From NCBI GenBank assembly GCA_009760855.2, contig WPIO01000115.1, positions 726,501 to 790,500 of the forward strand: a stretch of DNA of 64,000 bases, given 5' to 3'. Of the stretch, positions 4,410-54,235 are shown in pieces; within the stretch, counting starts at the first letter, position 1; each line of letters begins with the position of its first letter. The stretch is from Cristatella mucedo (taxonomy: Eukaryota; Bryozoa; Phylactolaemata; Cristatellidae). Position numbers and translations under genes: made by a program. A model generated the notes under the pieces. That model saw nothing but the letters and a program-made list of their open reading frames with translations. It was not told the DNA's origin and made no database searches.

Positions 4410-4588
4410 GTTTGTGAATTACAGAAGTAATAACGTGATATAAAAAATGCACGGTTGAAATTAAACGTGGTATCCCTGTCTAAGCAAGCCAGAATTGTAG
4501 CAATCGTACGAAGCTGAAAGTAGACAGACTTGATTGTGGATGTGATGTGTGCATCTAACGAAAGGTCACTTTGCAACATGACCTGTAT
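4410..4588 (-). mobile_element. LINE-A internal fragment (C-terminal coding)
   Basis: Antisense LINE-A. The open frame on the minus strand reads MLQSDLSLDAHITSTIKS followed by a YFQL-like block, matching the conserved LQSDLSLDDHISS block of other LINE-A copies. It is interrupted at about 4588 by a plus-strand LINE-A 3' end and probably resumes at 4800. The same arrangement is present at 48240-48445. Confidence 0.85.
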
Positions 4589-4797
4589 GGCCTTATCCCG
4601 CTGACACTGTGCATGCTGTCACTAACCACACTTGCATGCTGACCTTGTATATATCACCTCTAACCATGTTATTCTTGTCGATTAGCGAGCATGCTACCAC
4701 TAACCTTTCGATCGTGCTTCCTGTGCAGCAATTTTAAAACGCCAAGGAAGAGATTGATGTCTCTGAGGGTGCTTTAATAGGTGTTTTCTTATTGTTA
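4589..4797 (+). mobile_element. LINE-A 3' UTR inserted in an antisense LINE-A
   Basis: Plus-strand LINE-A 3' UTR: GCTGACACTGTGCATGCTGTC, repeated GCATGCT-type motifs, GAAGAGATTGATGTCTCTGAG (3' stem region), and an ATT-rich tail. It sits inside an older minus-strand LINE-A (4410-4588 and 4800-5215). The nested pair is conserved in duplication copy 2 (48447-48650). Confidence 0.82.
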
Positions 4798-4799
4798 TT

Positions 4800-5215
4800 A
4801 GTATAAGGTCAAATCGCAGAAACCTAATAAATGCCGCGATAAATAAAGGCTGTTGTAGTTTTCTTTTTGGAATGCAGACAAGTCAGCAGATGTCCCGATG
4901 CATATTGGAACGAGTTCCACTGTTTGAAATCATACACATTAAAGGCATGGTCTCCAAAGGATTCAAGGTTTCTGCAATGTGCTGGTAAACAATTAGATTA
5001 AGAAAAGTAAATGGTACGACGCTTAGCCTGGTGGGGAAGAGGATCCGATAGTTAGGCTGGAGCCAAAGGATAATGAGATATAGAAGTGAGTTACATAACC
5101 TTGAAGTCAATGTATTGTTTGACTGTGAGCCAGTGCAGATTGGCGAGAAGTGTTGTGATTTGGCAGCGGCTACGATCGCGACTGACGAGACTAGCTGGAC
5201 ATATATCCATGTTAA
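4800..5215 (-). mobile_element. LINE-A 3' coding fragment
   Basis: Antisense LINE-A C-terminal region. Minus-strand matches include the regions encoding the NSLPTCIRTSPDLTTFK-like end and the LLADLHWLPV block. Heavily mutated. The counterpart in copy 2 is 48655-49060. Confidence 0.82.
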
Positions 5216-7054: not shown

Positions 7055-7206
7055 ATATAAATAAAAAAAATTCCTTTGTGTACCGCCCTAATAGAACTAT
7101 AACTCTATTCATGTGCTTCACATATGCCTCAGCGCTCGAGCCGACGACCTCAGCCAGACCTTATTCGATGGCAAGCACCTTAACCACTGGACCAACCCAG
7201 CTCGGC
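7055..7206 (-). mobile_element. SINE1 copy
   Basis: On the minus strand: CTGGGTTGGTCCAGTGGTTAA (A-box region), then GGCTCGAG (B-box region), the GGCATATGTGAAGC junction, and a LINE-A-like tail (AGTTATAGTTCTATTAGGGCGG). It splits the LINE-A fragment; the copy 2 site (about 53292-53305) is empty. A GAACAC-rich tandem repeat abuts its head. Confidence 0.88.
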
Positions 7207-7611: not shown

Positions 7612-8744
7612 GCCTTGGCCTTCAGCAGGAACATGATCTTTATGACTGGATCATCTAATCTTTGGGTTTCAAAGCTCAAAATGATGCTACCCTGCTTTTG
7701 GTGCACCTATACTTGAATTATCTACACAGGGCAACAAGGGCTACTGCCTTTTTCGGAAATATGTTTCATGGAAGCGTTCCTAGATCTTTTTCAAGATACG
7801 TACTCTCAGAAAAATTGAAAGCCCGCACGCGTTTTCTAAGACGTTGTTATACGAGCAGTTGAAAGGCGACGAATAAGCAAGGAACTGAATGCACCTAAAG
7901 ACTAGGATCGCAATCGTAGTGCTTCCCAATTATCCCTCAGTTGATGCAACTTGGCTATATTTGCTTACGAATAAAATGAGGGCTTTTTGTCACAGCTCTT
8001 ACAAAGGCGCCGTACCTGCTTCTCAAATAATATTGAAAATTGCAATACATTTGAGATAGCACCTTCAGAGAACTCAAACTATTTCTAGGCACTTTGCATT
8101 TGCTGCAGAAGAAGCACGATAAAATGGTTAAGGGGTTTATGCTCAGTGAAACATGAGGAACATGGTTAGGGGTGACTTGCACAGACCTTCCATGCTACTA
8201 AGGTTAGTAAAGTCTCTATGATTTAAAATCAGCAATTGCATCGGGGCTAGTCTCCGCCGAAGTGGGAAAGCTACTGAGAAAGCCACAGCCATGATGCTGG
8301 TTTACAGAGTCCCCGAGTCACTAATCAAGGAGTGCCGGCCTCAAGATGATGGTACGGGAAATAATGTCAATAGCCTAAGGCCATATTTGTCTGCCACATG
8401 CACAGTATCCTTTCTGCCAACACAAACGAGTATCATTATCAAGCAAGCAGCAGACAACGCGACACCCAGATTCAACTCCTGTAGCGTCTGCATGAGATCT
8501 AGGTGTATTGTTTGAATATGACGCTTCACTAGACAATCACTTCCCTCATTATCTAATTACGACATAACGCGTTTTGTATTTCCGACAAACAGGTTGTCTA
8601 GACAAACGTTTCGATTATTTCTTCTATTGAGTTGTCCACTGAGCTTTCCAGAGAAAGGAACATGTCACCTCAAAAATGCAATGGTCAGACGTGTGTAATA
8701 GCATAGTAGTAGTATGTAGTAATGACCTGACTAGAGTCTTTTTA
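7612..8744. repeat. Tandem-duplicated subunit, first member
   Basis: Matches 9163-10090 plus 10750-10925, and 54226-55375 of copy 2. It starts with TGGCCTT..GGAACATGATC just at the end of the LINE-A similarity, contains an old LINE-A 3' end (-) at about 8045-8195, and ends with CATTATCTAATT...GAGTTGTCCACTGAGCTTT. Copy 2 has one member only, so the doubling occurred in copy 1 after the large duplication, or one member was lost from copy 2. Confidence 0.85.
8045..8195 (-). mobile_element. Old LINE-A 3' end
   Basis: GATAGCACCTTCAGAGAACTC followed by TTCTAGGCACTTTGCATTTGC is the complement of the LINE-A 3' stem region and upstream 3' UTR. Also present at 9610-9770 and 54675-54830, so it is part of the repeated subunit. 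Confidence 0.8.
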
Positions 8745-10504: not shown

Positions 10505-10695
10505 GCATTTCTTTTGAGGTATGAAATGCTAACTGATCTAACAGCTTCTTTTGTATGGCAAAAGAAGAGCCTTTGCGGCTATCACCACCGCTTGCAGTGG
10601 CGATAAAGAATCGCCCACCGCAGGATTCAAATCCACGACCTCAGCCCCGAGGTCGTGATAAGCAACCGCCTTATCCTAGTGAGCCATTTCTGCTC
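10505..10695 (-). mobile_element. SINE2 copy (tRNA-derived)
   Basis: Reading the minus strand: GGCTCACTAGGATAAGG (A-box-like), then a 9-bp stem CACGACCTC / GAGGTCGTG, then GGATTTGAATCC (B-box-like, complement 10623-10634), then a body with CGCCACTGCAAGCGGTGGTG, and a 3' part with a 9-bp hairpin (CTTCTTTTG / CAAAAGAAG). A second copy is at 35433-35602. Absent from duplication copy 2. Confidence 0.85.
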
Positions 10696-10971
10696 ACCAT
10701 AGCACTCCACCGTGCACCTTTCCATGAACGTTAACCATCCACCACAACCTTTATCTCCAGCTGTCTCATTATCTAATTCTGACACGACGAGTTTGTTATT
10801 TCCCACAAATTGGGATTTCTTGAGGAACGCTTCAGTGATTTCACATGTTGAGTCGTCCACTAAGCTTTACAGAGTAAGGTAGATGTCACCTTATAGGTTC
10901 AATGGTCAGCCGTGTGTTCCATTTCGCTCAGGATTTTTCAATACTAGAATACTGTCGGAATAAATAAATAA

Positions 10972-11122
10972 ACAACATTATTTTATGTAGTACTCTAAAA
11001 GAACTTAATCTGTGTCAGGCACTTCACATATGCAAAGATGCTAGCCATCGTCGCGGGGCACCAAGTACTTCACCTCGACCTCAGTCGTTTGAGGTGAGTA
11101 TCTTTACTGGTGGGCCAATGTT
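10972..11122 (-). mobile_element. SINE1 copy, diverged
   Basis: Complement of the SINE1 tail (CTAAAAGAACTTAATCTG), then GCACTTCACATATGC, then a degraded B-box and tRNA-like head ending near GGTGGGCCAATG. Matches the young copies across the body but with many changes in the head. The corresponding stretch is missing from copy 2. Confidence 0.75.
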
Positions 11123-24464: not shown

Positions 24465-25417
24465 GTGAGGTTGGACTCCCCAGATATTAAGGGCTCAGCC
24501 GAAAAATTTTCAGCCTTCTTTACTGAAAAAATTGTGCACATTCGTGCCTCCTTTAAGCCCCCTCCGACCAAAGCAAACGCCGTTCCTCAACCTGTGACCT
24601 TCCTTAAAATAATCTCCGACGTTTCTGCCTGTGATGTGGCTGCCTTAATAATATCTAGCAAAAAGAGCTCGTCTCCTAAATACCATATACCTTCATCTCT
24701 GTGGTCTTCACTGGCAGACCAACTTAGCCCTGCCATAACCAAGATTTGTAATGCTTCTTTGGCAAAAGGGGTCGTCCCCAAGTCCTTCAAATCGGCAATC
24801 GTTAGACCAATTCTTAAAAAGCCTGGATTAGACACAGAGGTCCTAGCAAACTATCGTCCAGTTTCCCTTCTTCAGTTCTTATAAAAGATTCTTGAAAAAA
24901 TTGTTGCTAAGCAGCTAGCTGAACATATTGAAAATAATGGAATGTCAGAAAAATTTCAATAAGGTTTCGAGAGGCAGCACTCTACTGACACTGCTCTCCT
25001 CCTTGTTAACAATGACATTCTAAGTGGTAACGACGACGGGAATGTCACTGCCCAATCTCTGCTAGATCGGTCTGCTGCCTTCGACACTATTGATCACGAA
25101 GTTATGCTTGAATGATTAAGAACAACTATCGGTCAGTCAGACGAAGCACTGGCGTGGTTTAAAACCTACTTGTCTGATCGTGTTCAATCCGTGTCGTGTG
25201 GGGTCAGGTCTCAGAGACGAGAAGGGTCACCTGTGGAGTCCCTCAAGGGTCTGTACTCTGTCCCTTGCTGTTCTCCATTTATACAAAACCTTTGGGAAAA
25301 TTGATTGAGGCCCATGGAATAGAATATAACTTCGAAGCTGACGGAACTCAGTTGTATTTGTCATTGAAACCGTGGTTTGGTCTAGCGGTTAAGGTGCTCG
25401 CCCCGACCAAGGCCTGA
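24465..25417 (+). pseudogene. LINE-B reverse transcriptase (broken)
   Basis: Open pieces 24465-24884 and 25196-25417. Blocks: SSLWSSLADQLSPAITKICN, VPKSFKSAIVRPILKK, LANYRPVSLLQFL followed by a TAA, FQ(stop)GF, an AAFDTIDHEVML-like block (about 25075-25110), and [20 protein letters not shown]. The YADD box reads FEADG here, which would abolish polymerase activity. The paralogue at 33170-33622 keeps [10 protein letters not shown]. The frame is then terminated by SINE1. Confidence 0.88.
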
Positions 25418-25506
25418 CTGGGGTCGTGGGCTCGAGCCCCGAGGCATACGTGAAGCGCCTGAATTGAGATTTAGTTATCTTTGGGCGCTATATAAGTGAA
25501 TTCTTT
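25373..25506 (+). mobile_element. SINE1 copy, inserted in LINE-B RT
   Basis: Head: TGGTTTGGTCTAGCGGTTAAG (A-box region), CCCCGACC, then TCGTGGGCTCGAGCCCCGAG (B-box region). Body GGCATACGTGAAGCGCCTGA. Tail GAGATTTAGTTATCTTTGGG-CGCTATATAAGTG, which resembles the LINE-A 3' end. It sits between AAACCG and TCGGAATCTGC of the LINE-B RT, and the uninterrupted sequence AAACCGTCGGAATCTGC is found at 33369-33385. No clear target duplication. Confidence 0.93.
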
Positions 25507-25527
25507 TCGGAATCTGCTGCGGCAACT

Positions 25528-26439
25528 GTAATAATTATTATAATAATAATATTGCACTTGATAAAGCGCCCTCAGAGAACTTAATCTCTTTCTAGGTGCT
25601 TTACATTTGCTGCAAAGTGATACGCAACAGAATAGTAAGTAAAATCATGCTTGAAAAACAAACAAAATGAATAACATGGTTAGGGGTTACATGCACTGGG
25701 TCAGCATGCAAATGTGGTTAGTGGCAGCATGCACAGTGTCAGCACGCATAAGCACATCGAGGACGAATCACAAGGACCCACTAAATGCTGTCCTAAATAG
25801 GTGTGTTTTTAAGTTTCTTTTAAATGTGGTCAGGTCAGGGGATGTTCTGATGCAGGTCGGGAGGGAGTTCCAGGCTGTGGGAGCATACGAGCTAAATGCA
25901 CGGTCTCCAAAGGATTTAAGGTTTGTATGAGGTATTTCTAGACTGTTGGATTCCGAAAAGCGAGTGGTACAATGCTTTGCCTGATGGGGTAGTATCTCTG
26001 AAAGATAGGCTGGAGCCATAGAATGAAGAGACCTAAAAGTGAGCGACAAAACCTTGAAGTCAATCCGTTGCTTGACTGGTAGCCAGTGCAGGTCGGCGAG
26101 AAGTGGAGTAATGTGGCAACTGTGAAGCTCACGACAGACAAGCCTAGCTGCAGAGTTTTGCACCAGCTGCAATCGCCTGATCGCACATGCTGGTAGGCCA
26201 GTAAGCAGTGAGTTGCATAAGTCGAGACGAGATGTCACGAATGCATCGACCAACTTGGACGTGGTATCCTTATCTAAACAAGCCCTAATTTTAGCAATGT
26301 TATGAAGCTAAAAATAGGCTGATTTGACTGTGGAGCTGATGGGGTCGTCTAACGAGAGGTCGCTTTGGAATATGACACCTAGATTTCGAGCTGATTCAAC
26401 TGGAGATATGCTGGCAGAGCCAATTTTGAAAGTCAGCCT
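25528..26439 (-). mobile_element. LINE-A 3' quarter inserted in LINE-B
   Basis: Tail TAATAATTATTATAATAAT, then CACTTGATAAAGCGCCCTC and onward to GGCAGAGCCAATTTTGAAAG. The minus-strand frame 25768-26253 encodes 161 residues of the LINE-A C-terminal domain (DAFVTSRLDLCNSLLTGLPA, RRLQLVQNSAARLVCREL, LLADLHWLPVKQRIDFKVL, NSLPTCIRTSPDLTTFKRN), one of the best-kept versions. LINE-B sequence continues on both sides (GCGGCAACT on the left, CTTAATGCTTGCC on the right). Confidence 0.93.
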
Positions 26440-27431
26440 GAAACTTAATGCTTGCCTAGCCGATATTCGATCCTGGAAGTAGGAAAACTTCCTAATTAAA
26501 TGACGATAAAACCGAACTGCTGCTCATAGGACACCTTAAGCGTATGGCAGGATTAAAACCCTTTGCTTTTCTAATAGGTACTTCTATTGTGTGACATTCA
26601 CCACGTGCTCGTAATTTAGGTGTCGTGTTTGACAGCTGCCTCGATTTCAAAAGCTTCATTCAGAAGACTGCCTCTACAGCTAGCCATCACATGGGATCCC
26701 TATCCAAGATTTGGAGCTGTCTCCCACAGTGGCCTGTAAACAAATTAACTAGCTCTTTAGTTATGTTTGGCTTGATTATTGTAATTCCCTTTTGGCTGGG
26801 CTGCCAAAGAAAGCAATTATGCCACTACAGCGGACTATGAATATGGCGGCAATTCTGGTCTTCAAGTCCCAGCGGTATGAGCACGTGTCACCTCTGCTGA
26901 AAGAGCTAGGATGGTTGCCGGTTGAGCAAAGGATACAGAGCAAAGTTCTTACGCTGACCCACAAGGCCCGCCACGGCTTGGCTGCTTCGTACCTAGCCGA
27001 ACTGCTGCACCAGTTTTAGCCTGTCCGTGCCCGCAGGTCCTGTGTGGACAACAAATTAGCTGTCCCGTTTCTCTGCTTAAAGACCTTTGGCAACAGAAGC
27101 TTTAGCTCTGCAGGTCCTAGGCTGTGGAACCCGCTTCCACAATTCTTGGGCAATGACAACTACTCTCCTACTGCCGACTATGGCACATCTTTTTCAGCGG
27201 TCCTGAGCTGCTACTTCTATGCTACTCACTACCTGAATTTCTCTCCTGAGTCAGCTATGCTTCCCATTTTCTCTATGTTAAGTATGATGAAGTTTGTTTG
27301 CTACTGAATGCATACCAAAAGCCGCTTAGGCTGCGAGTGGGCTATGTAAAACTCTCTTGCGTAACACCCACATGGCCTTTATGACTTCGTGTAGTTACTG
27401 ACGGAGATAAATTACACTACATTACATAGCA

Positions 27432-29498: not shown

Positions 29499-29723
29499 TC
29501 TCGCCTCCTGACATAGAGCGCTCTAACGTGCATTCATGTTCGTTGCAGAATTCTTCCGAAAAACGAAGTTCTTACGAACATCGTATACGAAAACGATACA
29601 GCTAAGACCTGTTTAAAGTTATTCTGATTGTTATTTGACCGTAGCACGTAAGAAATTGCGTGCCTATAGACATCTAAACGCTTATCGCTTCGGGCTGCTG
29701 GGTCTCCCACGCCCTCGGCTGCC

Positions 29724-30296
29724 TTGGCTATGCCGGCAGTTAGTAACGTACTTGTTAGTTATGATCGTCAGCAGCTGGTATCGCTTCGTCATCGTATATC
29801 AAATGCATTCCTAGATATTAATGTTGTTGCTAAGATTCATGAACTATGCATTAACAAAAGGAAAACACCCAGTAGCCGCCACGGTGGCCAGAACCGCCAG
29901 CTCAGACGCCGCTCGTTTGGTATTCCTAGCATTGTCTCGAACCGCTCAGCACGCTCCCCGGCATGAATCACTGTTAATCTTTCTAACTTAGTGGTCATCA
30001 GGCCTGTTGTAACCCAATCGGCCAGACTTAACGCCTGCCTTTGGAATCCTCGCTCAATGTGCAATAAACCTCTGGTAATAAACGACCTTATTTCTGAAAA
30101 TCGTATCGACCTGCTCGCCCTAACTGAAACTTGGCTGAAATCGATAAACTGCCAGACAATTAAAGACGCTACTCCATCTGGTTTCACGTTCTTTCATACC
30201 CCTAGATCAATCAAAACTGGAGGTGGAGTTGCTATTATCGTAAGCTCAAAATTCAACTTCAAGCCATTTGCTGTACTCTCGAAACAGTCTATTTAA
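29724..30296 (+). pseudogene. LINE-A N-terminal region and start of endonuclease
   Basis: Frame shared with the downstream RT pieces. The N-terminal region includes DRQQLVSLRHRISNAFLDIN and a KIHELCINKRK segment. In a second piece of the frame: RLNACLWNPRSMCNKPLVIN (catalytic Asn), DLLALTETWLKS (catalytic Glu), and RSIKTGGGVAIIVSSKF. It stops at TAA (30294-30296), where the sister copy reads on with ESIVLVSPENKLPI. The first ATG is only a formal start. Confidence 0.85.
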
Positions 30297-30334
30297 TCAA
30301 TTGTCCTGGTCTACCCGAAAACAAGCTACCGATA

Positions 30335-31082
30335 GTGGCAGTAGTCTATCGCCCACTAGATACCAAATCCTCCTTTATCTCAGATTTATCCGATCTCATT
30401 TCGATTGTGTGTGCAAGAAATCGATCCTTCCTTGTTATGAGGGATTTCAACGTTCACTTTGATTACTTATCTGACGCTTTAAGCACAGAATTTCATGCAT
30501 TAACAGACTCATTATCTCTTGTGGCTCATGTGAATGGCCCTACCCACATCAAGGGTCACAAACTCAACCAAATTTTTTTCAAATAACTGCACTTTGTCAT
30601 CACCAATTATCACCAAATCCTGCTTATCTGACCACATGCAGATCTCATTCAATCTACAGTGTGTGCCCACATTCTCCTCTAAAATAACCTGTGAATCGCG
30701 AAACCTCAAGACCCTTGACATCGATGCTGTCCATGCGAGAATATATGCTTCCCCTTTGCTGCTCAGTCCTCCCTTGGATCTGTCATCATTTGTAGATGGC
30801 TACAACACGAAACTAGCTGGCTCGCTCGACGAGTTTGCACCTCTCACAAAGCGCACTGTGAGCCCCCGCCGAGACGGCCTATGGTTTACCACAGACATTA
30901 AACTAGCCAAGTCTACTAAACGAAAGCTTGAAAAAGCATACAAAAGATCCGGACTAACTGTCCATCAACAAGCATATGAAGACTACTGTAGGTCGTACCA
31001 ATCGATCCTAGCAAAGGCCAAGTCTAGCTTCTATAGAAACAATGTTGAATCACAGATGCATAATCCGAAAATGCTGATGTAG
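30335..31082 (+). pseudogene. LINE-A endonuclease C-terminal part and linker
   Basis: Two overlapping frames (30335-30586 and 30534-31082) joined by a frameshift near 30585. Motifs: VVYRPLDTKSSFISDLSDLI; FLVMRDFNVHFD (the usual GDFN with Gly changed to Arg); LSDHMQISFNLQ (Ser-Asp-His box). The linker holds a conserved WFTTDIKLAKSTKRK block and ends at a TAG (31080-31082) in an M-x-T-I-N-H context. Confidence 0.87.
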
Positions 31083-31172
31083 ACAATAAACCATTTCTTC
31101 AACCGTTCCCAGATTGGCTCCTTACCTGATGATCCTTGTGATGATCTAGCCGATCGCTTCTCTCGATTCTTT

Positions 31173-32123
31173 GTGCAGAAGATAGACAAGATCAGGGAAT
31201 CCAACCCTGCGATGACAATCTTCCCACTAGAATACTGTTCCTCGGTTCCTGGCTGCGCCTCAATGTCTGCATTTAAGCAGGTCACTAGTGATCTAGTCCT
31301 AAAGCTCGTATCACAATCAAAGAAGACAACAAGTCCACTGGACCCTATTCCGAATGTCCTGCTCCTATGCTGCGTTGATATGCTGCTGTCATGCATAACC
31401 AACATCATTAATATGTCATTAGCCTCAGGTCAGGTCCCAGCACCTTTCAAAAAAGCTGTAGTCGGGCCACTTCTCAAGAAAGCTACACTAGACCAAGAGA
31501 ACTTAAGCAACTACCGCCCAGTCTCCCTTCTACCATTCCTATCAAAGACACTCGAACGGGTCGTGGCAGACCAGCTGAACTCGTATATCGAAACCTCACA
31601 CCTTGCTAGTAAGTTCCAGTCTGGCTTTAGAGCTAATCACTCCACAGAGTCAGCATTGCTTCGGGTATACAACGACCTACTTAGGAATGCAGACATGGGT
31701 AGAGTGTCTCTTCTTGTTTAGCTTGATCTTTCGGCAGCTTTTGATACCATCGACCACAAAGTACTTCTAGAGCGCCTCTCATCTCGCCTGGGCATCACTG
31801 GCACTGCTCTGCAGTGGTTCAGGTCCTATCTCAGTGGGAGACTCCGGAGTGTTGACGTGAATGGACAAAGATCATCTGAAGTACCTCTAAAATATGGAGT
31901 ACCTCAGGGCTCTGTGCTAGGTCCGGTCCTTTTCACCGTTTATACTCTGCCTCTTGCTGATGTGATTGCCAAGCACAATCTAGGCTTTCACTACTATGCG
32001 GATGACACACAGTTGCACCTTTGCTTTGATCCCTCCCAGCCTTCAAGCACCTCAAATTCTCTCAACTCACTTGCTGCATGCATTGATGACATCCGCACAT
32101 GGATGGCAGCAAATTTTCTATAA
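31173..32123 (+). pseudogene. LINE-A reverse transcriptase, best copy
   Basis: One frame interrupted by only two point stops (31719-31721 TAG in the LLVLLDLS block; 32121-32123 TAA in FLKLNDD). Blocks in order: APFKKAVVGPLLKKATL, LSNYRPVSLLPFLSKTLER, FQSGFRANHSTESALLRVYN, AAFDTIDHKVLLERLSSRLG (first catalytic Asp), [20 protein letters not shown], and HYYADDTQLHL (catalytic YADD codons at 31995-32006). This places it in the CR1/L2 group of non-LTR RTs by motif pattern. Known family role: copies element RNA at the nicked target. Confidence 0.92.
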
Positions 32124-32153
32124 CTTAACGATGATAAAACTAACTTACTAGTC

Positions 32154-32858
32154 ATGGGCGAACCCAGTGTGATTCAGAAATTGGAAAGGCTGACTTTCAA
32201 AATTGACTCTGCCAGCATATCTCTGGTTGAATCAGCTCGAAATCTAGGTGTCATACTCCAAAGCGACCTCTCGTTAGACGACCACATCAGCTCCACAGTC
32301 AAATCAGCCTATTTTCAGCTTCATAACATTGCGAAAATTAGGGCTTGTTTAGATAAGGATACCACGTCCAAGTTGGTCAATGCATTCGTTACATCCCGTC
32401 TCGACTTCTGCAACTCACTGCTTTCTGGCCTACCAGCATGTGTGATCAGGCGATTGCAGCTGGTGCAAAACTCTGCAGCTAGGCTTGTCTGTCATGAGTG
32501 TCGCAGTTGCCACATTACTCCACTTCTCGCCGACCTGCACTGGCTACCAGTGAGGCAACGGATTGACTTCAAGTTTTTGTCGCTCACTTTTAGGTCTCTT
32601 CATTCTATGGCTCTAGAATATCATTCAGATATACTACCCCATCAGGTTAAGCATCGTACCACCCGCTTCTCGGAATCCAACAGTCTGGAAATACCTCGTA
32701 CAAACCTTAAATCCTTTGGAGACCGTGCATTTGGCTCGTATGCTCCCACAGCCTGGAACTCCCTCCCGACCTGCATCAGAACATCCCCTGACCTGACCAC
32801 ATTTAAAAGAAACTTAAAAACATACCTATTTAGGACAGCATTTAGTGGGTCCCTGTGA
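32154..32858 (+). pseudogene. LINE-A C-terminal domain
   Basis: A 234-codon open frame in the same frame as the RT. Conserved blocks: SARNLGVILQSDLSLDDHIS, KIRACLDKDTTSKLVNAFVT, SRLDFCNSLLSGLP, IRRLQLVQNSAARLVCHECR, SCHITPLLADLHWLPVRQRI, NSLPTCIRTSPDLTTFKRNL, and YLFRTAFSG before the stop. This RT-linked thumb/C-terminal domain is shared by CR1/L2/Jockey-type elements; no RNase H motif is evident. The same blocks recur in at least eight other fragments here. Confidence 0.9.
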
Positions 32859-32879
32859 TTCGTCCTTGATGTGCTTCTG

Positions 32880-33089
32880 CTTGCTGACACTGTGCATGCT
32901 GCCAGTAACCACATTTGCATGCTGACCCAGTGCATGTCAACCCTAAACATATTATTCATTTCGTTTGTTTTTCAAGCATGATTTTACTTACTATTCTATT
33001 ACATATGACTTTGCTGCAAATGAAAGCACCTAGAAAGAGATTAAATTCTCTGAGGGCGCTATATCAAGTGTAATATTATTATTATTAAA
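32880..33089 (+). other. LINE-A 3' UTR, terminal hairpin and (ATT)n tail
   Basis: Contains GTGCATGCTGCCAGTAACCAC and related GCATGCTG/CTAACC repeats, then AGAGATTAAATTCTCT (33036-33051), a short inverted repeat, then GAGGGCGCTATATCAAGTG and ATTATTATTATT. The last ~50 bases match the SINE1 tail. In L2-group LINEs the terminal hairpin is the known RT recognition site; that role here is inferred. Confidence 0.85.
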
Positions 33090-34374
33090 ATCATCACGAA
33101 GTAATGCTTGAACGATTGAGAACAACGATCGGTCTGGCAGACGAAGCACTGGCGTGGTTTAAATCATAGTTGTTTGATCGTGCTCAATCCGTGTCGTGTA
33201 GGGGTCAGGTCTCAGACAGGAGAAGTGTCACCTGTGGAGTCCCTCAAGGGTCTGTACTCGGTCCCTTGCTGTTCTCCATTTATACACAAGCTCTGGGAAA
33301 AGTGATTAATGCCCATGGAATAGGATATCACTTCTATGCTGACGATACTCAGTTGTATTTGTCATTTAAACCGTCGGAATCTGCTGCAGCAACTAAGAAA
33401 TTGAATGCTTGCCTTGCCGATATTCGATCCTGGATTTCGGTAAACTTCCTGAAATTAGATGACGATAAAACCGAACTACTGCTCATAGGACACCCTAAAC
33501 GCGTGGCTGGATTAAAAGGTTTTGCTGTTCTAATAGGTGATGCTATTGTGCGACCTTCACCACGTGCTCGTAATTTAGGTGTCGTGTTCGACAGCTGCCT
33601 CGATTTCAAAAGCTTCATTTAGAAGACTGCCTCTATGGCTAGCCATCACATCCAATCCCTATCCAAGATTAGGAGCTGTCTCCCACTGTGGCTAATAAAA
33701 AATTTAACTAGCCCTTTAGTTCTGTTTGGCTTGATTATTGTAATTCCCTTTTGGCTGGGCTGCCAAAGAAAGCTATTATGCCACTACAGCGAACTATGAA
33801 TATGGCTGCAAGGCTGGTATTTAAGTCCCAGCGGTTTGAGCACGTGTCACCATTGCTGAAAGAGCTAGGATGGTTGCCGGTTGAGCAAAGGATACAGAGC
33901 AAAGTTCTTACGCTGACCCACAAGGCCCGCCACGGCTTGGCTGCTTCGCACCTAGCCAAACTGCTGCACCAGTTTTAGCCTGTCCGTGCCCGCAGGTCCT
34001 GTGCGGACAATAAATTAGTTGTCCCATTCTCCGCTTAAAGACAGTTGGCGACACAAGCTATAGCTCTGCAGGTCCTAGTCTGTGGAACTTGCTTCCACAA
34101 TTCTTGCGCAACGACAACTACTCTCTCGTACAGCCGACTATGACGCATCCTTTTCAGCGGTCCTGAGCTGCTACTTCTATGCGACTCACTACCTCAACTG
34201 CTCTCCTGACTCTGCTATGCTTCCCACTTTCTCCTTGTTGCGTGAGACGAAGTCTGTTGGCTACCGAATGCGTACCGAAAGCCGCTTAGGCTGTGAGTTC
34301 GCTATGCAAAACTCTCCTGCGTAACACCCACATAGTCTGTATGACTTTTTGGAGTTACAGACGGAGATACATTC
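33090..34374 (+). mobile_element. LINE-B, right segment with intact YADD box
   Basis: Continues the LINE-B cut at 29498. The open frame 33170-33622 encodes [55 protein letters not shown] and [18 protein letters not shown], then a stop (TAG) followed by the C-terminal part (33751-33978, LQRTMNMAARLVFKSQRFEH, LTHKARHGLAA) and the 3' UTR (CGCTTAGGCTGTGAGTTCGC, CTCTCCTGCGTAACACCCAC). Tail ACGGAGATACATT at 34360-34374, after which the old LINE-A resumes. Confidence 0.92.
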
Positions 34375-34610
34375 TTGCAATGGATAAGCTCAATTCGATT
34401 CAGCAATCTAAAAAAATCAAAATCGGCTCTGCCAGCATACCTCCAATTGAATTTGCTTGAAAAATGTGTCTTGCTCCAAAGTGACCGTTTATTAAACGAC
34501 CACATCAGCTGCTCAATCATGTCTTACCATTTTTATGTGAATTGCATAGCTAAAACTCTGGCTAGTTTTAGACGGAAATACAACCCCTTGCTGCCGACCT
34601 CATTCTATTT
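34375..34610 (+). mobile_element. Old LINE-A, third segment of the nest
   Basis: ATTCAGCAATCTAAAAAAATC, then CGGCTCTGCCAGCATACCTCC and CAAAGTGACCGTTTATTAAACGACCACATCAGC-like codons (QSDLSLDDHIS). It follows in order from the segment that stopped at 29426. The remaining 3' portion is deleted. Confidence 0.85.
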
Positions 34611-35014: not shown

Positions 35015-35835
35015 TTAATATTAATATTATAACTTTTATATAGCACCTTCAGAGAACTCAGTCTCTTTCCAAGTGCTTTACCTTTTCCTCTAAGGAAGCT
35101 AGTTCAAATGGATTGTTGTAGCGTGCTCAATAAAAAACAAGAATAGCGTGGTCATTGGTGGAGTGCACAGGATCAGCATGCAAGAATGGTTAGTGGCAGG
35201 ATGCCCAATGCCAGCACCCATAAGCAAATAAATGATGAGTCACACGGGCTCACTCGTTGCTGAGATGGATAGGCTTTGCTTAGTTTTTTAAATGTTTTTA
35301 ACTCAGGAGAGGTTTGACTAAGATAACAGTGACTTCTAGGCTTTGGGATCATACGAACAAACTGCAGTGTCTCCTAAATCTTTTAAATTTGTAGGAGATA
35401 TGGGTAAACAGTTAGATTTTGAAAAGCGGATGGTTTCCACGACCTCGGAGTCGAGGTGGTGGGTTCGAATCCTGCAGTGGACGAACCTGTATCGCCACTG
35501 CAAGCTGTGGTGATAGCCGTAAAGGCTCTTCTTCCGCTATACATAAAGAGGCTGTTTAATTAGCTAGTATTTATTTATTTATTTATTAGATCTGATAGCT
35601 GTTATATTTTGAAAAGCGGATGGTTCCAAGCTAAGCCTACCAGAGGGGTAGATCAGACAGGCAGGCTGAAGCCAAAGCATGAACGGATGTAAAAGAGAGT
35701 TTTAAAATCTTGAAGTCGACGCCTTGTTGACCGGAAGATAGTGCAGGTCGGCGAGAAGTAGTAGGACGGTGCAACTGCTATGCTCTCGACAAACAAATCC
35801 AGCTGCAAAGTTTTTACACCGTGTGTAAGCTCATG
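35015..35835 (-). mobile_element. LINE-A 3' third, split by SINE2
   Basis: Tail TTAATATTAATATTATAAC, then TATATAGCACCTTCAGAGAAC and the 3' UTR, then the C-terminal coding part. It is interrupted at 35433 by SINE2 and resumes at 35603, ending near CACCGTGTGTAAGC. Confidence 0.88.
35433..35602 (+). mobile_element. SINE2 copy with ~24-bp target duplication
   Basis: Starts inside the tRNA-like head (CCACGACCTCGGAGTCGAGG, stem region), then GGGTTCGAATCCTGCAGTGG (B box), a body with CGCCACTGCAAGCTGTGGTG, AGCCGTAAAGGCTCTTC and a (TTTA)n tail. The flanks repeat GTTAGATTTTGAAAAGCGGA (from 35411) and GTTATATTTTGAAAAGCGGA (from 35601), each followed by TGGTT, one mismatch. This is a typical LINE-mobilised insertion into an antisense LINE-A. 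Confidence 0.9.
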
Positions 35836-35999: not shown

Positions 36000-36115
36000 A
36001 CTACTGTAAACCTAATGAAAGCCTCACAGGCTTTGAGTTTGCAGTTGAAAACTGTTTTGCATAGCACCCATATATTCTGCTTTTTGTATGAAGTTATAGA
36101 CAACGATACATTACA
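36000..36115 (+). mobile_element. LINE-B 3' end fragment
   Basis: AAGCCTCACAGGCTTTGAGTT, TTGCATAGCACCCATATA and GACAACGATACATTACACG match the LINE-B 3' UTR and tail, with many changes. Confidence 0.75.
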
Positions 36116-40600: not shown

Positions 40601-40715
40601 GTTAATTGAGCATGCTACCACTAACCATTCGATCTTGTTAACTTTCGCTAATAATGGAAAGCATTTATAAAGGGGTTAAGTTCTCCGAGGCTCTTAAATA
40701 AATGCATCGTTGTTA
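37615..40715 (+). mobile_element. LINE-A, long decayed copy
   Basis: Begins in the N-terminal region (TCGAATCAAACCGCTCGGCAC) and ends after the 3' UTR (GGTTAAGTTCTCCGAGGCTC, about 40675-40694) with a short T/A-rich end but no clear (ATT)n. Endonuclease relic 37740-38400 (ISDHMQVSFSLK box at 38314-38349), linker with WFTSELN at 38578, RT relic 39180-39780 (FYVDDTQSYFRF: YADD changed to YVDD), and a C-terminal open frame 39894-40670 of 258 codons (SLKDHISSAIKSFYF, ARLDFSKSLFARLLACAIRG, LADLYWLLVKQRIDFKALSL). Multiple frameshifts. Confidence 0.9.
39894..40670 (+). pseudogene. LINE-A C-terminal domain, longest open frame
   Basis: 258 codons that stay open through the C-terminal domain and into the 3' UTR, because the normal stop after the LFRTAFSG position is altered. 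Residues about 1-185 match the domain. The rest (after KIKNAEVYHSTYW) is translated 3' UTR, including the GCATGCT/CTAACCA repeats. Openness is fortuitous, since the RT upstream is broken. Confidence 0.8.
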
Positions 40716-46254: not shown

Positions 46255-46431
46255 GGTTTAAATGCATCCCAGAGATCAATAAACTCATACCCGGCTCCAA
46301 GCATTGATAATGTAGGATCCCCGTAATCGTAAATATCTGAATAATCCGATCGAAGATATATAGACATATTTCTTTACATATACATACAATTAACTTTTTT
46401 AGCGTCCCAATAAAAACTATCGCTATTTCTG

Positions 46432-46545
46432 CGTTTCAAATAACTATTTTATTTGGCTCAAGTACGCGACCCAGTCCATCAAATATATTTACCGTCACCA
46501 ATGTCGGAATATCACCTTAATCACTGGCCTAAACCAATGAGGCCA
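46432..46545 (-). mobile_element. SINE1 copy, old, paralogue of 2390
   Basis: Same structure and position in the duplication as 2390-2505, including the TCAAATATATTTACC insert. Contains the palindrome CAAATAACTATTTTATTTG at 46437-46455. Confidence 0.6.
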
Positions 46546-48239: not shown

Positions 48240-49060
48240 CTGGGTCAAGATGCAAAGACGTTTATGAATTACAGAAGTAAAGGCGTGATATGAAAAATGC
48301 CTGGATAAAATTAAATGTGGTATCCCTGTCGAAACGAGCCCAATATTTAGCAATTTTATGAAGCTGAAGGTAGCCACACTTGATTGCTATTGCGATGTGG
48401 TCATCTAACGAAAGGTCACGTTGGAACATGACCTGTATGCTCGTATGCCTGCTGACACTGTGCATGCTGTCACTAAACACACTTGCATGCTCAACTTGTT
48501 CATATCGCCTCTAACCATGTTATCATTGTCGTTTGGCGAGCATGCTATCACTAACCATTCGTTCGTGCTTCCTGTGCAGTAATTGTAAAACGCCTAGGAA
48601 GAGATCGATTTCTCCGAGGGTCTTTTAGCAGGTGTTTTTTTAATATTATTATTATAAGGTCAAATCTCAGGAACCTACTAAATGCTGTATTAAATAAATA
48701 AATGCTGGTTTAATTTCATTTTGAATGCTGGCAAGTCAGAAGATGTCCTGATGAGTATTGAAAACGAGTTCTGCTGTTTGGAATCATACAAACTAAAGGC
48801 ATGATTTCCAAAGCATTCATAGCTTAAGCGAAGTGTAGTTAAACAATTAGATTCCGAAAACTGGCTAGTACGATGCTTATTCTGGTGGGGAAGTAGATTT
48901 GATAGTTAGGCTGTGGCCATAGGATAAAGGGTTATCAAATTGAGTTAAAAAACCTTAAAGTCGATGAGTTGTTTGACTGTGAGCCAGTGCGGGTCGGCAT
49001 AAAGTGGTGGGATTTGGAAGCTTCTACAATCACGAAAGACAAGCCTTGCTGGACAGTTTT
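48240..49060 (-). mobile_element. LINE-A C-terminal fragment with nested LINE-A 3' end
   Basis: Antisense LINE-A 48240-48445 (minus strand: VMFQRDLSLDDHIAIAIKCG, RDTTFNFIQAFFISRLYFCN) and 48655-49060, split by a plus-strand LINE-A 3' UTR at 48447-48650 (GCTGACACTGTGCATGCTGTC, CTAGGAAGAGATCGATTTCTC, ATATTATTATTAT). Paralogue of 4410-5215. Confidence 0.85.
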
Positions 49061-49334
49061 CCATAAAAGTTGACAGTAACTGTAATGAGACAAGTGAGTA
49101 AAGCCCGTATAATCATGAAGATGTTTAGGACAAACATTTAAAATCCTGTTAGTGACGTGCTACACTTACACTCATGCCTTTTTGACTTCAATATTTCAGC
49201 TAAACATTCTCAGATAAGAACTTTGGTGTTTCATTAGGCTAATAATGCTGCACTGCATTGCCTTTGGCCCCTGCAGGCTTTACCGTTTGCTGGCTGGTAG
49301 ACCTTAGTTTCCATCTGTGCAGTATGCTAACATG

Positions 49335-51116: not shown

Positions 51117-52846
51117 AACCCGATGAAATACTGCCCTTGGACACGTGCTACGAGTTAACATTCAACGAATATTTCCGCTGTATGCAATCTCTATTCAATT
51201 AGAATTAACTAAAACTGCTTGGATTAATATTTAACTTTACCTAATCATGAATACCTGTTTACGAGATTTTTTACTGATTTTGATATCATGGTACAAGTAT
51301 AGGAGCACGCCTGACCACTCAACTTAAAAATTGTGTTCTCCCATTTAAATTTTCTTAACGCCCTATAAGCCGTAACATAGATATCATGCTGAGCATGTTT
51401 GCAGAATTTTTTTGCACATATGGCAGATTTCTCAGAGTAAACCGTTTTTTACGTGGATTGGCATCCGTAGTTAGTAGCAGCTATACGCCGAATTTAGCTT
51501 AACAATCTGTTCCATCAGAAAGCCCAATCAACAAATCTCAACGAATAGATTACTGACTAAAGTATACTAAACTGTTAGATCTTAATTCCCCTCCCCCGCG
51601 CTAAAGAGTGGCCTCAGGTGACTCCTAGCTTGTTGTGGACCTTCACTGGATTTCTCCGTAATACCTTCGGGTATTCCGCTGCTTTATTTGCAGTGACTAT
51701 TTATGAGCTATCCTCGGATATGCTACACAAAACAGGACCTACTAAGCATAAGGTGCGATGTCGCCATTAGTCGATACCTACCGGCGGGCCTTCCCCAGTG
51801 GGTCAGTGAGAACCTTCCTGCATCCTGCATTCGCCTTATCAACAGTTCGTCTATCAAACCTACGACTCGTAAGTTTAAAATGCTGAATAGTACTTGTTGC
51901 GTTAGTAGCCCATCCGCCATAGCCCAGCACGTTGCGAAACATCGTCAGCCGTAGTTACCAGCTTACATAAAGTCAGTTCAGAATAGTCGAAGCAAGTAGC
52001 TGGATGAGACTGTATGGGACAGTCTAGCATTGAGCTTGGTCAGGGAGCTTGTTTTACTTCCACCAAGTTTGTCTGTCCGCAATGATTAAGTCTGAGTATA
52101 CGTAGCTTGACTAAGAGAAAGCTAGGTGTCACCGGAAAGTTCACACAATTCGCATCCCTTTAAACATGGAGTTTTAACTTAATTCACACGTCTTACTCGA
52201 ACTCATTTTTAGCAAGACGACTTGTGGATACCATCAGCTACTAAGTGTCGATTTCATGCGAGCTCAGGATTATCTTCATAGGTTCTAACGGGCAGTTTAA
52301 AAACTCATTTAGTCTTAATGTCTAACTTTGAAAAGCTATGTATCTTATCAACTCTTTGGGCTTTGAATATCCTCATAGAACTACAGAATATTGTTTTATC
52401 TGACCATAGATATGCAAAAGGGCAGTGAGAATTCACTGCGAATCAAAATGAACAGTCCATAGATTAGCTTTTAAAGCTAGTTTATCTTCATTGGTGGCCG
52501 TGTTGCAGCAGCATCAGTTTGGCCGACAAAAGAAAGCGCAATGGAAATGTAATACAATTTACTGGTATAGCACCAAAATAAAAAACAATCTATATTCAAG
52601 CAATCACGTATGCCACGAGCTCGGGCACACGATCTTGACTATCAAATACATTTACCTTGATCGTGGTCGGTGCTAGCATCTTAACTACTGAGTCAACCAG
52701 CTCGTTGAATTGCTAAGACTGTAAGCATAGTATTTAACTGGCATAAGATAATCCAATACAACTTAATGACCTGGTCGTTGTCCGTTAAGATGTGGACTTC
52801 AATGCAGCATCACATCTGTATTGCTGGCTTACCTTTCACGACAACC
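51117..52846. other. Copy-2-specific ~1.7 kb block
   Basis: Copy 1 reads directly from CACGATTGAC to ACCACTGGTAACG (about 6598-6620), whereas copy 2 has this block between the same anchors. It holds a SINE1 (52601-52705), and its part 52180-52425 weakly but collinearly matches 12290-12530 (shared GTCTTAATGTCTA, TTTTTAGCAA, CCATCAG). No terminal inverted repeats or target duplication seen. Insertion or copy-1 deletion unresolved. Confidence 0.65.
52601..52705 (-). mobile_element. SINE1 copy, old subfamily
   Basis: CACGTATGCCACGAGCTCGGG, CACACGATCTTGACTATCAAA, then TACATTTACCTTGATCGTGG and a degraded A-box (complement of TTAACTACTGAGTCAACCAGC). It shares the extra TACATTTACCTTGA segment with the copies at 2390 and 46432. 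Confidence 0.7.
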
Positions 52847-52989: not shown

Positions 52990-54235
52990 GCTGCTGAAGT
53001 TTGCACCAGCTGTGGGAGCCTGAGTGGCAGGGCCAATAGACCAGCAAGCAGTGAGTTATGGAAGTCATGACCGGATGTCACAGATCCATGAACTAATTTA
53101 GATCTGGAATCGCTGTCTAAAATCCCCAAAATTCACCAATGTTATTCTGCTGAACGTATTCAGACTAAATTGTGAAGCTGATGTGGTCTTCTAACGAAAT
53201 ATCACTTCGGAGCATTACACCTAGATTTCTTACAGATTCAAAAGGAGATAAGTTTTTTTCAAAGCCGATTTTGAGTATTAGCCTTTTCGATTTCAGAAGT
53301 ACACTTGGTTTGCCCCAAACTAGTAAGTTTCTTTTATCATCATTCAAATTAAAACGGTATGCTGGCAACTATGCTCGAATGCCATCAATACAAAAAGCAA
53401 AATATTTAACAGATTTTGACGTACCGGATGGCTTGGAGGAATCAAATTTAAATTACAACTGAAAGTCATCTGCATAGAAGTGAAATACATAGATTATAGA
53501 CGGCAATAACTGAGGCAAGATGGGGAGTATAAACCCTAAGTAGAACGGGACCAAGTACAGATCCTTGAATTACCCCATATTTCAGAGGTTTGGAAGATGA
53601 TCTAGGCCAGTCGCATCAAAACTCTGGAGTCTCTTTTTGAGATAGGAACTGAATCATTGCAGAGCTGGTTTGGTCTAGTGGTTAAGGTGCTCGCCCCGAC
53701 CAAGGTCTGACTGAGGTCGTGGGCTCGAGCCCCTAGGCATATGTGAAGCGCCTGAATAGAGATTAAGTTCTCTTGGGTGCTATATAAATGAATTATATTT
53801 TTTTATATATGCAGTGCCAGTGATTCCCAGGCGAGATGAGAGGCTTTCAAAAGGACTTGGCGATTGCTAATAATATTATTTGCCGAAAGATCAAGCGAAA
53901 AAACAGACGTACTCTACACCAGTCTGCATTCAAAGCTTATACACACGAAGCAATGCTAACTGTGTGGAGTGATTAGCTCTAAAATCAGAGTGGATCTCCG
54001 TGGCAAGGCTTGAAGCTTCAATATATGAGTTTAGCTGGTTTGCCATGACTCGTTCCAGTGTCTTTTATAGCAATATTAGAAGAGAGACCATGCGGTATTT
54101 GTTTAAGTTTTTTTGGCTAGTGTTGCTTTTTTATTACTGGCCTGCCTAAGAAAATGATTGATCGTCGACATCAAGGTTTTGGGATTGAGCATCTGTGATT
54201 TAACAATGCTTTTATAGAAGCTGGACATGGCCTTT
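52990..54235 (-). mobile_element. LINE-A RT and C-terminal fragment, split by SINE1
   Basis: Antisense LINE-A from TTTGCACCAGCTGTGGGAGCC through the C-terminal and RT coding to GAAGCTGGACATGGCCTTT. Minus-strand pieces: AYRFNLNDDKRNLLVWGKPS, SVRNLGVMLRSDISLEDHIS. Interrupted at 53664-53805 by SINE1. Paralogue of 6755-7611 but longer. Confidence 0.88.
53664..53805 (+). mobile_element. SINE1 copy, best preserved
   Basis: Head TGGTTTGGTCTAGTGGTTAAG (A-box region), GCTCGCCCCGACC, then GGTCGTGGGCTCGAGCCCC (B-box region); GGCATATGTGAAGCGCCTGA; tail AGAGATTAAGTTCTCTTGGG-TGCTATATAAATG; then an AT-rich end. It interrupts the LINE-A RT, with LINE-A TGCAGAGCTG on the left and TATGCAGTGCCAG on the right (short TGCAG repeat). 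Confidence 0.94.

Follow-up and report, generated by a model that had tools for sequence, protein, structure and literature searches.

In a SINE/LINE pair a short RNA exploits the enzyme that another element encodes. Such pairs are known in animals, fungi and plants, with LINEs of the CR1 and RTE clades predominating, and the table in the available part of one survey includes partners with L2 names from fish, sea urchin and sea anemone (PMC3747384). In the eel pair UnaL2/UnaSINE1, according to the available parts of two sources, the SINE has its tail in common with an L2-type LINE, and the 3′ hairpin is needed by the LINE enzyme (PMC3747384, PMC4176376). For the zebrafish L2 LINEs, the published sections on tail recognition place hairpin binding in the region between the endonuclease and the reverse transcriptase; the stem, which serves general recognition, is read by a conserved part of this region (cTBR), and the loop, which decides specificity, by a variable one (PMC4176376). 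Partner tails that are alike in the recognised loop and unlike elsewhere are a pointer to what the enzyme reads. An arrangement of the same kind as in the eel appears in the 64-kb stretch of DNA analysed here (the window), between a short element, SINE1, and a LINE family, LINE-A. All comparisons are confined to this window, which looks eukaryotic and is rich in LINE fragments, and the sample consists of 18 LINE-A tails and seven SINE1 copies.

SINE1 is a short interspersed element with a common build in its several copies, every one of which has a tail of about 57 nt. The original prediction had counted at least six SINE1-like copies, a figure borne out by the seven found, and both sequences that it quoted, the SINE1 tail and the LINE-A 3′ end, are present in the window. 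Our main finding concerns the copy at 53666–53810 (+), which has a head with box A and box B, a LINE-type tail from 53737 and a T-rich end; its edges are uncertain by 2–4 nt, and it is flanked on both sides by the LINE-A copy that it interrupts. Two subgroups can be told apart. SINE1a comprises this copy, one within a LINE-B copy at 25374–25506 (+), and one within another LINE-A copy at 7057–7204 (−). SINE1b, with a longer head, comprises the copies at 52551–52705 (−), 2343–2504 (−; its 3′ end adjoins a LINE-A 3′ fragment, 2330–2229) and 46343–46538 (−; one 3′ bound is also given as 46385), and roughly also a degenerate copy at 10965–11119 (−), which is nearest to SINE1b. The seventh copy, at 46.4 kb, joins the family by an 80% match to the 2.4-kb copy and is also matched, at E 1.5e-6, by a SINE1-tail profile built from the six other tails. 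A head profile built from all seven copies recovers the same seven, while one built from the three SINE1a heads finds two other heads at E 1e-4 and two more only at E 0.11 and 0.16. A weak match to this SINE1a head profile at 10676–10621 (−; 10.3 bits, E 0.035) is possibly a decayed eighth head.

The notion that SINE1 is a truncated LINE-A lying beside an unrelated head was rejected, since head and tail occur together in seven copies; it is also ruled out by two copies that are cleanly bounded inside other elements. Searches outside the window gave no exact match, either to two tail patterns sought in viral contigs or to one sought in genome contigs, and a protein search of viral contigs yielded no confirmed relative. 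Because few animal sequences are expected in those contigs, these negatives are uninformative about the family.

The head of the 53.7-kb copy contains a Pol III box A, TGGTCTAGTGG, at 53671–53681 (+), which fits the box A consensus, and a box B, GGCTCGAGCCC, at 53722–53732 (+), which has one mismatch to the box B consensus; these two well-known motifs served for scoring. The same combination, with the boxes 51 nt apart, is found in two of the seven copies (53.7 and 25.4 kb), and the boxes at 25.4 kb differ from those at 53.7 kb by one change that still fits. The other five copies fail the scan at one mismatch per box. Such pairs number five in the window against 0–6 (mean 2.05) in shuffled windows; since a shuffled window holds about two, the pair counts only by virtue of its location inside the element. 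The head had been described as tRNA-like, a description that is upheld by the boxes of these two copies and not by the tRNA searches: no tRNA was found in it by ARAGORN, nor by the Rfam tRNA model at E up to 10. The head may nonetheless be of tRNA origin, as a decayed or partial cloverleaf. That it is unrelated to LINE-A, as also predicted, agrees with its best match to LINE-A being noise (6.5 bits, E 0.51). SINEs of the CORE-, V- and Deu-SINE superfamilies have a conserved central domain, of known size in each, between head and tail. SINE1 has no such domain: in the 53.7-kb copy box B ends at 53732 and the tail starts at 53737–53741, a spacing of 4–8 nt.

The LINE-A reference stretch, as searched, spans 29500–33090 (+). 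Its reverse transcriptase frame, 31083–32858, has two in-frame stops, and this copy is therefore dead; no intact LINE-A enzyme was seen, the longest listed frame in the window being of at most 262 residues. The reference 3′ hairpin lies at 33016–33075 (+) and is followed by (ATT)n. LINE-B, a second LINE family that served as a control, is represented at 33090–34373 (+), and nine further pieces of it share a common 3′ position (34371–34377) and have varied 5′ starts. Its 3′ end is unrelated to that of LINE-A; this end (34314–34373) can form a stem-loop of its own, also unrelated to the LINE-A hairpin (z −2.95 in one copy and 0.01 in another).

The 18 LINE-A tails are partly non-independent: those at 4729 and 48580 resemble copies of one rearranged insertion, and those at 8103, 9660 and 54730 are members of one composite unit. 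This unit is present in three copies, 8717–7303 (−), 10090–8718 (−) and 55390–53811 (−), and consists, in order, of a non-LINE-A stretch X (up to about 510 nt), a LINE-A 3′ end with hairpin, a second non-LINE-A stretch Y, and LINE-A interior. Stretch Y, of about 416 nt and 69–74% identical between copies, comes directly after the hairpin without (ATT)n. Two of the units lie head-to-tail, about 1.55 kb apart, and the hairpin is embedded in the unit, not terminal. As for the rearranged insertion, 4414–5197 and 48265–49063 have the same inverted arrangement, with a (+) tail between (−) LINE-A pieces; since it is present twice, it seems to have been duplicated.

The original prediction that the SINE1 tail aligns with the LINE-A 3′ end is confirmed by blastn, in which 53737–53795 matches 33016–33080 at 74.6% identity (E 3e-6); the tail is closer still to another LINE-A tail, 2301–2233 (79.7%, E 1e-9). 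A profile HMM trained on all 18 LINE-A tails and on no SINE1 sequence found the SINE1 tail 53741–53796 with 32.7 bits (E 2.8e-9), followed by those at 25450 (27.9 bits, E 8.7e-8), 11029 (16.0 bits, E 4.5e-4) and 7123 (7.2 bits, E 0.27); the three oldest, at 52612, 2410 and 46442, gave no match at E up to 5. The best score in 20 dinucleotide-shuffled windows, all from one seeded run, was 9.2 bits, and three of the seven SINE1 tails are thus clear of chance. A covariance model was built from 17 of the 18 LINE-A tails, leaving out the very decayed tail at 40652, which was kept in the 18-row HMM. With this model the same three tails, at 53737, 25444 and 10974, scored 44.6, 33.2 and 27.6 bits; the tail at 7068 was found at E 1.5, and the remaining three gave no match at E up to 10.

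The reverse search, with the SINE1-tail profile built from six of the seven tails, found nine of the 18 LINE-A tails at E < 0.01 (22.0 to 12.9 bits) and 15 at E up to 5, the best of 20 shuffled windows scoring 11.6 bits. The same profile had no sense-strand match to the LINE-B 3′ ends, and its two antisense LINE-B matches (8.9 bits at 36071 and 5.1 bits at 27370) fall below that shuffle best. Judged from these comparisons, the SINE 3′ end qualifies as homologous to a LINE 3′ end, and they support the proposal that the SINE1 tail is either LINE-A-derived or descended from a common ancestor of both.

The LINE-A tail can be folded into two tiers. A basal stem, GCA/UGC, and a middle stem, UGUAAAGYGCCU/GGGYGCUUUAUCA, are surmounted by an asymmetric internal loop, an apical stem, AGAGA/UCUCU, and the hexaloop UURAGU, and a similar hairpin is predicted to be possible in SINE1 tails, as at 53737–53795 (+). 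Folding of seven of the 18 LINE-A tails against 200 shuffles each gave z of −3.48, −4.36, −3.66, −4.99, −1.77, −0.98 and −3.38; for the seven SINE1 tails, treated likewise, z was −4.45, −2.88, −1.46, −1.82, +0.95, +0.80 and +0.36. The SINE1 tails at 53737 (z −4.45) and 25444 beat all 200 shuffles, while the other five do not fold clearly, among them the third SINE1a copy, at 7.1 kb (z −1.46), which has no strong hairpin. The loop of the SINE1 tails at 53737 and 10974, UUAAGU, is the commonest LINE-A loop (4/17); that of the tail at 25444 is UUUAGU.

The covariation signal is equivocal. The LINE-A structure fits 82.6% of cells in the 17 LINE-A tails, against at most 53.8% when it is slid along the alignment, a comparison in which the structure was derived from the same sequences. 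Changes on both sides of a pair affect five pairs in the 17 LINE-A rows, against a shuffled mean of 2.8 (58 of 500 shuffles as high), and seven pairs in 20 structure-fitted rows, against a shuffled mean of 3.1 (5 of 500), where slid controls give 7 and 8. RNAalifold predicted six pairs from the 17 LINE-A rows and no common structure from the 25-row alignment of LINE-A and SINE1. Because the copies are decaying, broken pairs say little. What supports the predicted hairpin, then, is the folding energy of the better-preserved copies in each family; covariation lends it no support. Rfam has a UnaL2 family in its collection, but at E up to 10 no part of the window matched it, and the scan for a known hairpin returned nothing relevant. 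Its MIR2606 match at 25454–25600 (33.7 bits against a gathering score of 139.7) was rejected, as it is actually a SINE1 and a LINE-A hairpin facing each other as an inverted repeat.

The agreement between the two tails is uneven. In the covariance-model alignment of the 17 LINE-A tails and the three SINE1 tails that reached E 0.001, SINE1 agrees with the LINE-A consensus in the apical stem (0.87), the hexaloop (0.83) and the middle stem (0.82) about as the LINE-A copies agree with their own consensus (0.89, 0.80 and 0.83), and diverges in the internal loop (0.28 vs 0.87 for LINE-A) and in the base (0.67 vs 0.83). When all seven SINE1 rows are taken, in a sequence-only alignment, the values are 0.79 for the apical stem, 0.67 for the hexaloop, 0.70 for the middle stem, 0.21 for the internal loop and 0.46 for the base, against 0.88, 0.81, 0.81, 0.87 and 0.79 for the 18 LINE-A rows; the order of the regions is unchanged and the SINE1 agreement is weaker. 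About ten alignment columns separate the two sets of tails completely or nearly so: column 5 has A in 18/18 LINE-A and T in 7/7 SINE1 tails, and column 10 has A in 16/18 LINE-A and G in 7/7 SINE1 tails. Some of the differences near the 3′ end may come from an offset by a single base that was aligned as substitutions, and identity between the tail consensuses is 0.66–0.68 in the fixed-column alignment and about 80% for the best pair in gap-aware local alignment.

All seven SINE1 tails thus have in common states that are rare in, or absent from, the 18 LINE-A tails, and none of those 18 is SINE-like. In an unrooted tree of the 64-nt tails, the SINE1 tails form one group (support 0.968) on a long stem. 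Its neighbours are two odd LINE-A tails, 35085 and 40652, with a support of 0.912 for the neighbourhood and of only 0.251 for the grouping of these two with each other. The tail at 35085 has some of the SINE1 states (GCTATATAA) and is without a long ATT run.

A SINE1 that ended in a different simple repeat had been named beforehand as a result that would tell against the LINE-A partnership, and here the outcome does go against it: a run of at least three ATT units is found in 8 of 18 LINE-A tails and in none of the seven SINE1 tails (one-sided hypergeometric chance about 0.04, worked by hand), the frequency at random window positions being 0.3%. The mismatch is a weak refutation, since the L2-partnered Squam3 SINE varies in its terminal repeat, according to the available part of its description (PMC7983390). 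In the three SINE1a copies, the first run of at least four T falls at +56 to +61 from the start of the tail, close to the end of the hairpin; one of the four terminal T's of the 25.4-kb copy may belong to the target DNA, and the four other SINE1 copies have no such run at the hairpin end. As a Pol III stop at the end of the hairpin, the SINE1a run is suggestive only, since four T in a row are frequent in the window (23% of random 45-nt stretches and 6 of 18 LINE-A ends). The tails at 52612, 2410 and 46444 (SINE1b) and 11034 (SINE1b-like) have a run of 4–6 T in or near the hairpin loop, at +27 to +34, and in these four copies this loop-side run could stop Pol III early.

An empty site can be read at the three SINE1 copies that are nested in other repeats, and such natural empty sites show the insertion mode of the elements. 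At 25.4 kb SINE1 25374–25506 breaks into a LINE-B copy with at most 1 nt repeated; 22 nt further on, the same LINE-B copy is interrupted by a LINE-A copy, 25529–26439 (−), with no target duplication seen. At 53.7 kb, where SINE1 is nested in a LINE-A copy, 0–2 nt are repeated, and at 7.1 kb, where it is nested in another, about 6 nt (TTCAGA) are repeated. Since the 53.7- and 7.1-kb copies lie inside LINE-A copies, they were inserted later than those copies. On the 5′ side of the 7.1-kb copy there are short imperfect repeats extending over some 80–100 nt; the segment 7209–7288, about 80 nt of imperfect repeats of 7–23 nt, has apparently grown from target sequence. Two of the seven SINE1 3′ ends are within about 25 nt of a LINE-A piece, one facing a LINE-A 3′ end across 25507–25528 and one in line with it across 2330–2343, a proximity that by a rough hand estimate is commoner than the density of LINE-A suggests.

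Does LINE-A encode a protein that could recognise such a tail? In ZfL2-2 numbering, the cTBR residues considered are W325, E341 and basic residues at 331, 334, 338, 342, 345 and 346, with four of these positions obtained through the alignment of TBR1 369 with TBR2 324 in the relevant part of the zebrafish paper (PMC4176376). The LINE-A codons at 30882–30947 (+) read WFTTDIKLAKSTKRKLEKAYKR, in which W325 and E341 are matched and each of the six basic positions has a basic residue, W344 being replaced by Y and P324 by L. A strict pattern, drawn up once this match was known, has one match in the six frames of the window, in LINE-A, and none in 20 shuffles; a loose pattern has two matches, both in LINE-A, and 8 of 20 shuffles contain it as well. 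In the three further LINE-A copies that align here, fewer of these residues are present. Outside LINE-A no cTBR-like pattern was found in the window, where few LINE-B copies extend into that region. A reverse transcriptase domain (Pfam RVT_1) lies downstream of the match, and LINE-A has the matching residues, in register, upstream of it. The upstream LINE-A piece 30206–30586 had no Pfam match, and an endonuclease would be expected on this side. LINE-A is probably L2-type, an assignment that draws on the cTBR match together with LINE-A motifs which we take to be those of L2 elements.

We consider it probable that SINE1 depends on an L2-type enzyme from the LINE-A lineage, encoded by LINE-A or by a close sister, and is recognised by way of the shared hairpin. 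As a non-autonomous retroposon, SINE1 would be transcribed from its internal Pol III-type promoter (box A and box B) into an RNA of about 130–145 nt that would stop at the T-run just past the 3′ hairpin. An L2-type LINE belonging to the LINE-A lineage would have been the source of the hairpin, and the tail-binding region of an ORF2 protein from this lineage would attach to it. The RNA would then be mobilised in trans, target-primed reverse transcription copying it into DNA at a nick and leaving few target duplications or none. The original prediction had been more specific in stating that LINE-A mobilises SINE1. In its favor are the homology of the tails, the similar hairpin, the match of apical stem and loop in SINE1a, the putative RNA-binding residues of LINE-A, and the insertion of SINE1, with little target duplication, into LINE-A and LINE-B copies that are older than itself; what these data do not carry is LINE-A itself as sampled, given the diagnostic columns and the lack of (ATT)n in seven SINE1 copies. 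The partner may be LINE-A itself or a close L2-type sister, the sister being nearly as likely.

A sister L2-type LINE family absent from the window deserves to be taken seriously as the true partner, at a little under an even chance; SINE1 would then have its tail from that family, with which LINE-A shares only an older ancestor. The proposal overlaps our preferred explanation, because a close sister is allowed by both. The single tree group of SINE1 tails (0.968) beside the odd LINE-A tails would be explained in this way, as would tail 35085, with its SINE1 states and no long ATT run, and the difference in terminal repeat between SINE1 and the younger LINE-A copies. On the other hand, apical stem and hexaloop match LINE-A in SINE1a, the loop being what decides ZfL2 specificity, and no such sister is found among the 18 tails, for which the 64-nt tree has little power. 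A different possibility is that the shared tail is a relic and that the younger SINE1 copies were moved by a LINE of relaxed recognition using the T-rich end. We regard this as improbable: SINE1a does have T-rich ends in place of (ATT)n, and one copy has a target duplication of about 6 nt, but two of the three readable insertions have 0–2 nt, the SINE1 stems are still close to LINE-A, and a strong hairpin is kept in the 53.7- and 25.4-kb copies of SINE1a, though not at 7.1 kb (z −1.46).

That LINE-B mobilises SINE1 is very unlikely. Nine further LINE-B pieces do end at one 3′ position, and one of the two copies folded has a stem-loop in its last 60 nt (z −2.95 and 0.01); against this, the LINE-B 3′ end has no sense-strand match to the SINE1 tail, its antisense matches score below the best shuffle, and the cTBR-like pattern occurs only in LINE-A, few LINE-B copies extending that far. 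As a donor of the tail, LINE-B is disfavoured by the same want of a sense-strand match. Finally, chance or convergence as the source of the common tail can be given hardly any weight: the common words are short and partly AT-rich, but the LINE-only profile reaches 32.7 bits (E 2.8e-9) where 20 shuffled windows reach at most 9.2, and chance similarity was rejected on these scores.

It is tempting to see in SINE1 a natural dissection of L2 tail recognition, in which the apical stem, hexaloop and middle stem are kept alongside the coexisting LINE-A, whereas the internal loop and base differ, (ATT)n is missing and the end is a Pol III-type T-run. We offer this as a speculative reading, which may well prove wrong. 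Should LINE-A be the source of the enzyme, only the apical hairpin would be needed, and slippage on the simple repeat would be dispensable.

How does the locus compare, then, with the systems already described? The original prediction had likened it to eel UnaL2, a comparison that holds in principle and not for the hairpin itself, the loop being UURAGU here and GGAUA in the published portion on UnaL2 (PMC2653535); UnaL2 moreover ends in TGTAA repeats in the survey's account (PMC3747384), unlike SINE1a with its T-run. With zebrafish ZfL2-1 and ZfL2-2, LINE-A has in common the cTBR-like residues upstream of the reverse transcriptase and the 3′ hairpin, and the ZfL2 experiments, as the available sections present them, dealt with LINE tails and not with a SINE tail (PMC4176376). 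Carp HAmo SINE and HAmoL2 are likewise a tRNA-type SINE and an L2-type LINE with tail and hairpin in common; as reported in the accessible part of that work, their tails are almost identical, with TAAATG repeats, the loop GGAUA and obvious target duplications in most copies (PMC2653535). SINE1 and LINE-A, unlike these, have tails that differ in the internal loop, the base and the terminal repeat, and the target duplication is of 0–2 nt at two of the three readable sites. In this respect SINE1 resembles Squam3 of scaled reptiles, for which the pertinent section describes an L2-type 3′ end, simple-repeat tails that vary among (TAAA)n, (CTT)n, (GTT)n, (ATT)n and poly(A), and very few target duplications (PMC7983390). 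The Squam3 consensus is longer (218–239 nt, with a CORE-like part, in the same section of PMC7983390), the 53.7-kb SINE1 having 145 nt and 4–8 nt between box B and tail. Among invertebrates, the SINEs of sea urchin and sea anemone that are paired with CR1- or L2-named LINEs, such as SINE2-8_SP with L2-1_SP/CR1-3_SP, are of the same kind, as judged from the entries in the survey's table and not from sequence (PMC3747384). SINE1 and the LINE-A lineage are a further example of this known type of SINE/LINE pair, ordinary in kind and useful in detail.
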